A stretch of DNA of 9,969 nucleotides from Nitrospira sp. (GTDB lineage Bacteria; Nitrospirota; Nitrospiria; Nitrospirales; Nitrospiraceae). Under the pieces are notes generated by a model, which searched no databases, had not been told where the DNA came from, and saw only the letters and a program-made list of their open reading frames with translations. Numbering within the stretch: the first letter of the stretch is position 1; each line of letters begins with the position of its first letter. Positions 73 through 3,630 of the stretch are shown here, piece by piece. Made by a program: the position numbers and the translations under genes. The stretch is from NCBI GenBank assembly GCA_015904045.1, contig JABMDG010000004.1:49000-58968 (forward strand), read 5' to 3'.

Positions 73-1554
73 ATGGATGAACTGAACGAACAGCGACAGC
101 AGCGGATCAAGAAGCTCGACCAACTCCGCCAGGCCGGCGTAGCCCCGTACGGGTCTCGCTTCGAGGTAAAGGACCGGGCCGGGCAGCTCATCACGCTGCA
201 CGGGGAGAAGACCAAGGAGGTCCTCGAACAAGAACGCATCCCCTGCACCATCGCGGGCCGCGTCGTGGCCCTACGCCGTTTCGGCAAGGCCGGTTTCGCC
301 GTGCTCCAAGACGGGTCCGACCGGCTCCAAGTCTATCTGAAGAAGGATCTGCTCTCGGAACAGGCCTACACTGTGACCGAACAACTCGACCTCGGTGACT
401 GGATCGGTGTCACGGGAGTCCTGTTCCGCACCAAGACGAATGAGTTTACGGTCGAAGTCCATCAACTGACGTTTCTCAGTAAAGCGCTTCGACCCCTCCC
501 GGAAAAGTGGCACGGGCTCACCGACGTGGAAACCCGCTACCGGCAGCGCTACGTCGATCTCATCGCGAACCCGCAGGTGCATCAGATTTTCGCAGCCAGA
601 AGCCGGATCATCGCCGGCATCCGCGCGTTTTTGATCGAACGGGGCTTCCTCGAAGTCGAAACGCCGATGATGCATCCGATTCCCGGCGGCGCGACGGCCA
701 AGCCCTTCGTCACGCACCACAACGCGCTCGGCGTCGACCTGTATCTGCGCATCGCCCCGGAACTCTATTTGAAACGCCTGATTGTCGGAGGATTCCCGCG
801 GGTGTTCGAGATCAACCGGAACTTCCGGAACGAGGGCATCTCGACGATTCACAATCCCGAATTTACCATGCTGGAGTTCTACGTCTCTTACGCCGATTAC
901 CACGACCTGATCAGGCTGACCGAGGAGATGATTTCGACCCTCGCACGACAGATTCTCGGAAATACCGTCATCCCGTATCAGGGCAAAGAGATCATTCTGA
1001 CGCCCCCGTGGAGGCGCTGGTCCTATCACGAGGCTATTTGTGAAGTGAACGCACTTGACCCGTCCGTCCTGCACGATCGAAACAAGGCGCTGGCTGCGGC
1101 CAAACAGCTGAACGTGCCGGTGGATCCCAAGGCGTCGCTGTTCAACATCGTCAACGAGATGTTCGAGGAGACCGTCGAGCCCAACCTCCAACAACCCACG
1201 TTCATTACGGACTACCCCATCGAAATCTCGCCGCTGGCCCGGCGTAAGGATTCGGACCCCACCTTGACCGACCGGTTCGAACTGTATATCGCCGGACGGG
1301 AGATCGCCAACGCCTTTTCCGAGTTGAACGACCCGCTGGACCAACGCGAGCGGTTCGAGGGCCAGGCAGCCCAGCGGGAAGCCGGCGACGAAGAAGCCCA
1401 CCTGGTCGATGAGGACTTTCTCCGTGCATTGGAGTTCGGCATGCCGCCGACGGCAGGCGAAGGCATCGGCATCGACCGCCTGATCATGCTCTTTACCGAT
1501 CAAGCGTCCATCCGCGACGTCGTGCTCTTCCCCCAGTTAAGGCCGGAGAAATAG
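73..1554 (+). CDS. lysS: Lysyl-tRNA synthetase, class II
   Basis: Cytoplasmic enzyme that charges tRNA-Lys with lysine using ATP. The 493-residue product is a normal length for bacterial class II LysRS. It has an N-terminal helix, an OB-fold anticodon-binding domain at about residues 57-136, and a class II catalytic core from about 155 to the end. Motif 1 ends in FLEVETPMM (192-200). Motif 2 is RVFEINRNFRNEG (243-255), followed by HNPEFTMLEFY. Motif 3 is GEGIGIDRL (462-470). The stretch ELYIAGREIANAFSELNDP (403-421) is typical of LysRS. The ATG at 73 gives the family's usual N-terminus, but no Shine-Dalgarno sequence precedes it; the leader is instead the 9-nt periodic repeat. The next gene starts two bases after the stop, so it probably heads an operon with the Lol genes. 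Identification is secure; the exact start is slightly less so. Confidence 0.97.
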   Translation: MDELNEQRQQRIKKLDQLRQAGVAPYGSRFEVKDRAGQLITLHGEKTKEVLEQERIPCTIAGRVVALRRFGKAGFAVLQDGSDRLQVYLKKDLLSEQAYTVTEQLDLGDWIGVTGVLFRTKTNEFTVEVHQLTFLSKALRPLPEKWHGLTDVETRYRQRYVDLIANPQVHQIFAARSRIIAGIRAFLIERGFLEVETPMMHPIPGGATAKPFVTHHNALGVDLYLRIAPELYLKRLIVGGFPRVFEINRNFRNEGISTIHNPEFTMLEFYVSYADYHDLIRLTEEMISTLARQILGNTVIPYQGKEIILTPPWRRWSYHEAICEVNALDPSVLHDRNKALAAAKQLNVPVDPKASLFNIVNEMFEETVEPNLQQPTFITDYPIEISPLARRKDSDPTLTDRFELYIAGREIANAFSELNDPLDQRERFEGQAAQREAGDEEAHLVDEDFLRALEFGMPPTAGEGIGIDRLIMLFTDQASIRDVVLFPQLRPEK

Positions 1555-1556
1555 CG

Positions 1557-2834
1557 ATGGCCCTCCCCTATGAGATTTTCGTCGGCCTCCGGTACTTGCG
1601 CGCCAAACGCCGTAACCGGACGATCTCGCTGAACACCTTCGTGTCAATTGCCGGCATCACGCTGGGCGTGGCGGCCTTGATCGGAACAGTCGGCATCATG
1701 ACGGGATTCAAGGAAGACATTCAGGCCAAAATTCTGGGCACCACTGCGCACGTCATCGTCCAGGAGCGGATGAAAGAAAATGTCACGGACTATGATCCGC
1801 TGATTGAGAGAATACGCACCGTACCCGAGGTCGTGGCGGCCACGCCGTTCGTGCTCCGGCAAGTCCTTCTGACCACCCAATCAGGTGTACAGGGTATCGT
1901 CCTGCGCGGCATCGACCCGCAGCGCGAGGCGAACGTCACCGAACTGGCCAAGAACATGTCGGCAGGGCAGCTGACCGACCTGCTCACACCGGTCAAGGTC
2001 AGACAGGCTCCGGTCGACGACCCGCAGGGAGAGCCCCAGGTGGTCGACAAGCCCGGCATCATCCTCGGCAAGGAACTGGCCATGCGCCTGGGTGTATTTC
2101 CCGGTGATACGCTCAACGTGGTATCACCGGTCGGCCCGATCAGCGCGATGGGTATGGTCCCCAAAATCAGGACCTTCGCCGTCGTCGGACTGTTCCATTC
2201 AGGCATGTACGAATACGATTCCTCGCTCGCCTATATTGAACTTAGGGAGGCGCAGAAATTCTTCAACATGGGTGACGGCGTCTCCGGCATCGAAGTGAAA
2301 GTGACGGATGTGTTCCGCGCGGACGAAATCGCCCATACCATCGAACAGGTACTAGGGTTCAGCCACGGGGCCAGGGACTGGATGCAGATGAACCGCAATC
2401 TCTTCTCGGCCTTGAAACTCGAAAAAACCATGATGTTTCTGCTGCTTGTTCTCATCACCATCGTCGCATCGTTCAACATTGTGAGCACCCTCACGATGAT
2501 CGTGACGGAAAAGCAAAAGGAAATCGCGATTCTTAAGGCAATGGGAGCCACCAGGCGCAGCATCCGGCGGATCTTCATGCTGAACGGCTTGATCATCGGG
2601 CTGTCCGGCACGGCTATCGGCATTCCGCTGGGGTATGCCTTTCTGTGGCTGATCGAGAGGTTTTGGACCTTCGATGCAACGGTGTACTACATCTCAAAAA
2701 TTCCCGTGCACGTCCTGGCCGAGGACGTACTGCTTGTGGCCGGATCAGCGATTCTGATCAGCTTCGCCGCCACCGTGTACCCGGCCAACCAAGCCGCCAA
2801 ACTCGAGCCCGTTGCGGCGCTGCGGTACGAATGA
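1557..2834 (+). CDS. lolC: LolC/LolE-type lipoprotein-releasing ABC transporter permease
   Basis: Inner-membrane permease that, with the ATPase LolD, extracts outer-membrane lipoproteins from the inner membrane for delivery to the outer membrane. The 425 residues match the family's usual length (about 400-415) and its FtsX/MacB-like layout. One membrane helix lies at about 28-50, a large periplasmic domain at about 51-288, then three helices at about 291-316, 340-366 and 390-410. The cytoplasmic coupling segment EKQKEIAILKAMGATRRSIRR (318-338) is a hallmark. HSGMYEYDSSLAYI (214-227) is also typical. GGAG at 1545-1548, inside the end of lysS, is a good ribosome binding site 8 nt before the ATG. 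The stop overlaps the natural ATG of lolD as ATGA. Only one permease gene is seen, as in many non-proteobacteria where a single LolC/E-like protein may form a homodimer; calling it LolC rather than LolE is arbitrary. Confidence 0.93.
   Translation: MALPYEIFVGLRYLRAKRRNRTISLNTFVSIAGITLGVAALIGTVGIMTGFKEDIQAKILGTTAHVIVQERMKENVTDYDPLIERIRTVPEVVAATPFVLRQVLLTTQSGVQGIVLRGIDPQREANVTELAKNMSAGQLTDLLTPVKVRQAPVDDPQGEPQVVDKPGIILGKELAMRLGVFPGDTLNVVSPVGPISAMGMVPKIRTFAVVGLFHSGMYEYDSSLAYIELREAQKFFNMGDGVSGIEVKVTDVFRADEIAHTIEQVLGFSHGARDWMQMNRNLFSALKLEKTMMFLLLVLITIVASFNIVSTLTMIVTEKQKEIAILKAMGATRRSIRRIFMLNGLIIGLSGTAIGIPLGYAFLWLIERFWTFDATVYYISKIPVHVLAEDVLLVAGSAILISFAATVYPANQAAKLEPVAALRYE
2101..2130. repeat. Perfect 10-bp inverted repeat inside lolC
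   Basis: CCGGTGATAC at 2101-2110 is repeated in exact reverse complement at 2121-2130, with a 10-nt spacer. It lies in codons for about residues 182-191 of the permease, in the periplasmic domain. It could form a stable hairpin in the mRNA or act as a palindromic binding site, but no T-run follows, so it is not a standard terminator. It may be chance. Confidence 0.55.
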
Positions 2835-3154
2835 TCAAAGTCACCGACCTCCATAAGTCTTTCTCGATGGGTTCCTACGACCTGCCGGTGCTCAAAGGCA
2901 TAAATCTGGAGATTCACCGCGGCGAGCTCATTGCAAGCGTCGGCGCGTCCGGAGCTGGCAAAAGCACCTTATCAAAGTCACCGACCTCCATAAGTCTTTC
3001 TCGATGGGTTCTTACGACCTGCCGGTGCTCAAAGGCATCAATCTGGAGATCCAGCGCGGCGAGCTCATTGCAATCGTCGGCGCGTCCGGAGCTGGCAAGA
3101 GCACATTGCTCCACATCATCGGGACGCTCGACAAGCCCACCAGAGGCACCGTGA
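2831..3154 (+). pseudogene. lolD: Natural start of lolD, frameshifted by a tandem duplication
   Basis: The ATG at 2831 overlaps the lolC stop (ATGA), which is the expected start of the ATPase partner gene. From it the frame reads MIKVTDLHKSFSMGSYDLP and onward through a complete Walker A (GASGAGKST, near residues 41-49). It then enters the second copy of a 137-bp duplication in the wrong frame, reads unrelated sequence (SKSPTSISLSRW...) and stops at TGA 3152-3154. The product would be 107 residues with only the first 47 or so LolD-like, lacking the Q-loop, ABC signature and Walker B, so it cannot be a working ATPase. In copy 1 a Ser replaces the hydrophobic residue before Walker A that copy 2 keeps as Ile. 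Joining the ATG directly to copy 2 at 2971 restores an uninterrupted 220-residue LolD. This is a broken 5' end of one gene rather than an independent gene. Confidence 0.85.
2834..3107 (+). repeat. 137-bp imperfect tandem duplication of the lolD 5' end
   Basis: Copy 1 (2834-2970) and copy 2 (2971-3107) abut directly and match at 130 of 137 positions (about 95%) with no gaps. The differences are at 2875/3012, 2902/3039, 2914/3051, 2917/3054, 2937/3074, 2962/3099 and 2968/3105. In the LolD frame five are silent; two change the protein (His to Gln, Ser to Ile). As 137 is not a multiple of three, the duplication shifts the frame. No insertion-sequence ends or other mobile-element signs flank it. 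The mostly silent differences suggest that both copies diverged while part of intact genes, as expected for two strain haplotypes joined in assembly. A genuine duplication followed by divergence is the alternative. Confidence 0.95.
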
Positions 3155-3630
3155 CGTTCGACGGCCAAGACCTGTTCCAGTTGACAGAGAGCCAGCAAGC
3201 GGAGTTCCGCAACACACGCATCGGTTTCGTATTCCAGTTTCACCATTTGCTGCCGGAGTTCACGGCCCTGGAGAACGCCGGCATGCCGGCCTTGGTGCAA
3301 CGGCGCGACGCCGCCTCCGTCGAAGCCGACGCCAAAGCCCTGCTCACGGAAGTCGGCCTCGGCAAGCGGCTTCACCACAAGCCGGGAGAGCTGTCCGGAG
3401 GAGAGCAACAGCGGGTCGCGATGGCGCGGGCGCTGATGCAGAAGCCGGATTTGGTATTGGCCGACGAACCGACCGGCAATCTCGACACCCATAGCGGCGA
3501 CGCCCTGTTCGGGCTGATGCGCGACCTGAATAAATCCCGTGGCACGACGTTCGTCATCGTGACCCACAACGACAAACTGTCTGCCCAGTCGGACCGTATT
3601 GTTTACATGCAGGACGGGTTGGTCGTCTAA
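3004..3630 (+). CDS. lolD: LolD-type lipoprotein-release ABC transporter ATPase (5' end disrupted)
   Basis: ATPase that would power the LolC/E permease encoded just upstream. The frame is open from 2857 (after TAA at 2854-2856), but the first ATG is at 3004, giving 208 residues. The complete nucleotide-binding core is present: Walker A GASGAGKS (26-33), Q-loop with Q78, signature LSGGEQQRVAMARAL (130-144), Walker B LVLADEP (150-156) with D-loop GNLD (158-161), and H-loop His188. These match the LolD/MacB/FtsE class, and FQFHHLLPEFTALEN is typical of LolD. This start lacks a ribosome binding site and omits the 12 N-terminal residues, including the Phe of KSF that likely serves as the A-loop stacking the adenine. 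In the intact gene translation would begin at the ATG now at 2831 and give 220 residues. No ATG, GTG or TTG lies in this frame between 2857 and 3004. Family is certain; whether a functional protein is made from this exact sequence is doubtful. Confidence 0.85.
   Translation: MGSYDLPVLKGINLEIQRGELIAIVGASGAGKSTLLHIIGTLDKPTRGTVTFDGQDLFQLTESQQAEFRNTRIGFVFQFHHLLPEFTALENAGMPALVQRRDAASVEADAKALLTEVGLGKRLHHKPGELSGGEQQRVAMARALMQKPDLVLADEPTGNLDTHSGDALFGLMRDLNKSRGTTFVIVTHNDKLSAQSDRIVYMQDGLVV

Follow-up and report, generated by a model that had tools for sequence, protein, structure and literature searches.

A tandemly doubled lolD start in a Nitrospira contig, probably a chimeric join of two close lineages

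The 5' end of lolD occurs twice in direct tandem in a contig of Nitrospira sp. (JABMDG010000004.1), and the doubling breaks the gene. Most probably, no single living genome carries the repeat. The account we favor, with a probability of about 0.6, is a chimeric join of sequence from two close lineages, in which the tail of the first copy would be poor or divergent. The window referred to below is the whole stretch of DNA that was analysed, 9,969 nucleotides in length, and coordinates without a prefix are those of the window. The repeat itself, the break in the gene, the absence of the join in relatives and the uneven spread of changes between the copies were all observed directly.

The doubled gene start and its reading frames

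Copy 1 (2834-2970, plus strand) and copy 2 (2971-3107, plus strand) are 137 bases long each, and 130 of the 137 bases are identical in exact register, with no insertion or deletion. This doubling was the starting point of the original prediction, and the same coordinates and identity were found on recheck. Tandem Repeats Finder gave the 137-base repeat a score of 500 and found no second array in the window, so the repeat is far beyond chance. The unit begins at lolD codon 2, and its breakpoints share zero bases, with no microhomology. Seven sites differ (copy 1/copy 2: 2875/3012, 2902/3039, 2914/3051, 2917/3054, 2937/3074, 2962/3099 and 2968/3105). Five of these differences are silent and two change the amino acid, His/Gln and Ser/Ile.

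Upstream lies an intact lolC/lolE/lolF-type permease gene of 425 amino acids (1557-2834, plus strand), an open reading frame that scored 389 bits against TIGR02212, above the cut-off of 362.45, and which represents the permease neighbor looked for beside a LolD gene. Among the matches of a LolC search is the 100% identical P0144, given for one contig; the contig counts of that search do not agree with those of the LolD entries named below. The stop of lolC overlaps the natural ATG of lolD (2831-2833, plus strand) in an ATGA at 2831-2834. From this ATG the frame runs through copy 1, crosses into copy 2 out of frame and ends at a stop at 3152-3154 (2831-3154, plus strand, 107 codons); the LolD profile was matched by residues 1-47 only. 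The claim that the natural frame is closed and lolD broken is thereby confirmed.

The reading frame of the ATPase core has its first start codon at 3004, an ATG (3004-3630, plus strand; open reading frame and profile match) that is codon 13 of LolD in relatives, and yields 208 residues versus 220 in relatives, leaving out codons 1-12. Window codons 13-220 differ by one residue from the LolD of the nearest relative (P0025). It had also been claimed that the core frame has no good start. This holds upstream of 3004, where zero ATG, GTG or TTG codons were found in that frame back to the stop at 2854-2856, and no ATG precedes copy 2, but an ATG does exist at 3004. No purine-rich ribosome site was visible by eye ahead of it, and a promoter and terminator search of 2600-3200 found none. 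Ribosomal frameshifting into the core frame was considered and rejected, as no X XXY YYZ heptamer and three plain A runs only were present from 2831 to the stop.

Against the TIGR02211 equivalog profile the core scored 282.9 bits (profile positions 15-219 of 221), under the curated whole-protein cut-off of 307.75. Three intact Nitrospira relatives (positions 1-219) scored 292.4-294.5 bits, likewise under the cut-off, so the shortfall of the core is not due to the break alone. The window core resembles LolD (TIGR02211, NF008639; lipoprotein-releasing ABC transporter ATPase) in being a LolD-like ATPase gene directly after a lolC/E/F-type permease gene, and departs from it in the doubled start region, the closed natural frame and an open core without codons 1-12. 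The order lolF-lolD is given as usual in the part of PMC11784454 considered here. LolD powers the lipoprotein-releasing transporter, which published titles and abstracts on E. coli call essential. The genes in the window run lysS, lolC, lolD, a protein with a weak PorV-family match (below cut-offs) and a protein without an NCBIfam match, followed on the other strand by trpA, trpB, trpF and trpC and then a putative trpD, assigned by position.

The join and its surroundings in related genomes

The original prediction had proposed comparing the lolC-lolD junction with that of close relatives. The nearest sequences compared, L033 (YR-XLJ-2) and L034 (UBA2082), are both Nitrospira, as is the window, and each carries one intact lolD; the LolD of relatives is 220 residues long. 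When a 148-base query across the join was searched against 79 genomes of the genus, no match spanned the join in the 48 genomes with matches; the 31 without a match say nothing, and for some genomes the best 10 candidates were scored. Each of the matches listed breaks off no more than one base from the join, at query position 71/72. Neighboring pieces within one genome overlap on one gene, and G055 and G012 also show a second lolD place. The two places lie ~17 kb apart in G012 (G012:C1:1219398-1220021 and 1236152-1236775) and ~2.6 kb apart in G055 (G055:C58:139664 and 142260).

A tandem copy of the first 100 bases of the unit, sought at shifts of 30-399 bases with a threshold of 70/100, was found in 0 of 91 distinct relative loci. 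Of 117 loci matching LolD at 60% identity or more, 26 were set aside because of a truncated unit or a stretch counted before, which left these 91. lolD codons 1-13 were in frame and stop-free in 91/91; codon 1 was M or V in 85 and F or L in six more distant loci. Among 80 relative loci (1,116,346 bases), tandem arrays with a period of at least 60 were found only in L043 and L045, with at least three copies and periods divisible by three. These arrays, at L043:12658-13430 and L045:13837-14283, have periods of 129 (or 258) and 138 bases. A protein search with the 107-residue broken frame gave 22 matches, and the seven inspected (P0001-P0006, P0008) were without the join. Query coverage was 44% in 18 of the matches and 40%, 46%, 50% and 76% (the last at 38% identity) in the others.

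Both flanks of the join are closer to L033 than to L034, with no switch in affinity, although two very close strains would show none. No other net frameshifts versus L033 were seen in the window, which indicates that base quality is otherwise good.

Intergenic sequence around lolC varies among these relatives. In L033 a spacer of 101 bases separates lolC from lolD, and L034 has the ATGA overlap seen in the window; across 80 relative loci the interval ranged from a 4-base overlap (9 rows) up to 121 bases, with the outlier L053 left aside. ATGA stands at both ends of the L033 spacer (L033:7613-7715) and once in L034 (9275) and the window (2831), a pattern that loss or gain of the spacer between short repeats would leave. 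Between lysS and lolC, L034 (7832-8001) and L040 (7713-8001) carry ~170 and ~290 bases, respectively, of partly similar sequence that is absent in the window (1540-1557) and in L033. The end of this sequence resembles the end of lysS, a hint that the element between the genes is repeated or mobile.

Divergence of the copies and selection

The 7 differences in 137 bases exceed the 1.8-1.9 expected from the local window-to-L033 rate (P = 0.003-0.004) and are near the 3.9-5.2 expected from the window-to-L034 rate (P = 0.10-0.26), the distance that alleles from two lineages would show. With the lolC rate of 17/1275, the expectation from L033 is 1.83. Read literally as a clock, this divergence would place a duplication before the split from L033, which is without the repeat; alleles of separate lineages fit better. 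The age argument is soft: copy 2 itself has 5 differences from L033, which makes the unit locally fast-changing, and at 4%, the rate across the whole window, seven differences would be nothing out of the ordinary (P = 0.31). At unit position 123 the copies share a base absent in L033, L034, L078 and L037, and at position 87 one absent in L033, L034 and L037, hinting that the copies may be each other's nearest kin. A tree of the unit left copy 1, copy 2, L033 and L034 unresolved, and the longer copy-1 branch (0.039 versus 0.0079) is its sole informative point.

The differences were polarised with L033, L034, L078 and L037 as outgroups. Five changes were private to copy 1 (unit positions 69, 84, 104, 129 and 135) and two to copy 2 (42 and 81), position 42 being variable among the outgroups and assigned to copy 2 on L033 and L034. 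Both replacements, Gln29His and Ile36Ser, are in copy 1, and both private changes of copy 2 are silent. At position 104, T was found in 91/91 loci and G in copy 1, and the copy-1 base at position 69 (A) was found in 0/91. Positions 129 and 135 speak against simple error, since 23/91 and 43/91 loci, respectively, have the copy-1 base there. The copy-1 Ser36 and His29 motifs were in none of 120 LolD proteins, among the matches listed, and copy 1 is for this reason not supported as part of a working gene.

Five silent changes of seven would be uncommon under neutrality (P = 0.013-0.027), and the original prediction had taken this as a sign that both copies were under selection as parts of working genes. 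The silent majority stands, but the argument is weak: both replacements fall in copy 1, one of them at a site invariant in 91/91 loci. Copy 1 alone (3/5 silent) is indistinguishable from neutral (P = 0.10-0.16). Its replacement:silent ratio of 2:3 differs from the 0:17 of lolC versus L033 (P = 0.04) and shows no clear difference from the rest of lolD (1:6 and 2:13; P = 0.36 and 0.25). All five changes private to copy 1 fall within the 69 bases at its end (P = 0.03, a pattern noticed after looking), and such crowding toward the join is as would be expected of a poor or foreign tail beside a false join.

Origin of the repeat

Under the chimeric account, the lolC-lolD start of one Nitrospira lineage, its last ~70 bases divergent or error-laden, would form the left side; the right side would be the lolD of a second close lineage, entered at codon 2. 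Each real genome would presumably hold a single intact 220-codon lolD feeding the lipoprotein-releasing transporter. We infer that the join arose in assembly or in library making. The chimeric account is favored because every relative in which the junction could be assessed lacks the join and because the private changes of copy 1 crowd toward it. The original prediction had already proposed that two haplotypes were joined in a mixed assembly, and this is still the best account, though the reasoning from silent changes is weak and affinity stays the same on both sides. An assembler usually requires overlapping ends before it joins sequences, so the lack of overlap at the break counts against a join made in assembly. 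The unchanged affinity, the bases shared at positions 123 and 87 and the otherwise good base quality also count against a chimera, and Ser36 together with His29 do not look like a working allele. Chimeric contigs are reported for the assemblers tested in a metagenome benchmark (PMC11261854), and the window would resemble them in joining sequence of related strains; a short tandem doubling like that in the window is not described in the part of that source considered here.

A real tandem duplication within one genome, which broke lolD and left copy 1 decaying while a second lolD or minority carriers kept the cells alive, is unlikely. The states shared at positions 123 and 87 count in its favor, the replacements at conserved sites in copy 1 are what a decaying copy would give, and some Nitrospira (G012, G055) do have second lolD loci. 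Against this, the duplication is missing from every relative that could be assessed, the copies diverge beyond the local distance to the repeat-free L033, and the breakpoints lack microhomology. A second full-length match above 50% identity was listed in just 1 of 23 same-genus genomes (G012); lolD redundancy in Nitrospira exists and is uncommon.

Less probable again is real recombination between strains that left the two alleles next to each other in the same genome. The copies diverge about as lineages do, and identity to L033 and L034 shifts stretch by stretch along the window, as in recombining populations; yet the breakpoints show no homology, lolD would be broken by the event, and the join is not seen elsewhere in the genus genomes or loci searched.

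We consider it similarly improbable that the duplication is real and harmless, with translation from the ATG at 3004 giving a working LolD of 208 residues. That ATG is in frame, codons 13-220 are nearly identical to relatives, and 208-residue database entries begin at the same methionine (P0064, P0069, P0099, P0119). These may be start-calling choices or cut contigs. The first 12 codons are kept in frame in 91/91 loci, solved LolD chains align from query residue 2 or 4, which makes the N-terminal segment part of the fold, and the ribosome site was not visible. The short protein would also lose an aromatic residue that we take to stack on the nucleotide. The entries starting at the codon-13 methionine also include P0058 (208 residues), which is identical to the window core. 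The differences from the window core listed for P0119 (9 contigs) are also those of the 220-residue P0062, and P0024 (220 residues, 12 contigs) has a core identical to that of the window, with Glu6 instead of Asp6. That a real repeat serves as a reversible switch, recombination between the copies turning the gene off in some cells of a population and on again, is very improbable.

If the repeat is an assembly fault, it exemplifies how a doubled gene start can make a probably essential gene look broken in a metagenome contig, and how comparison with relatives exposes the fault. If it is real, the ATPase gene for lipoprotein export would be disrupted in a Nitrospira strain that lives in nature, and the need for the Lol route in the phylum would become testable.
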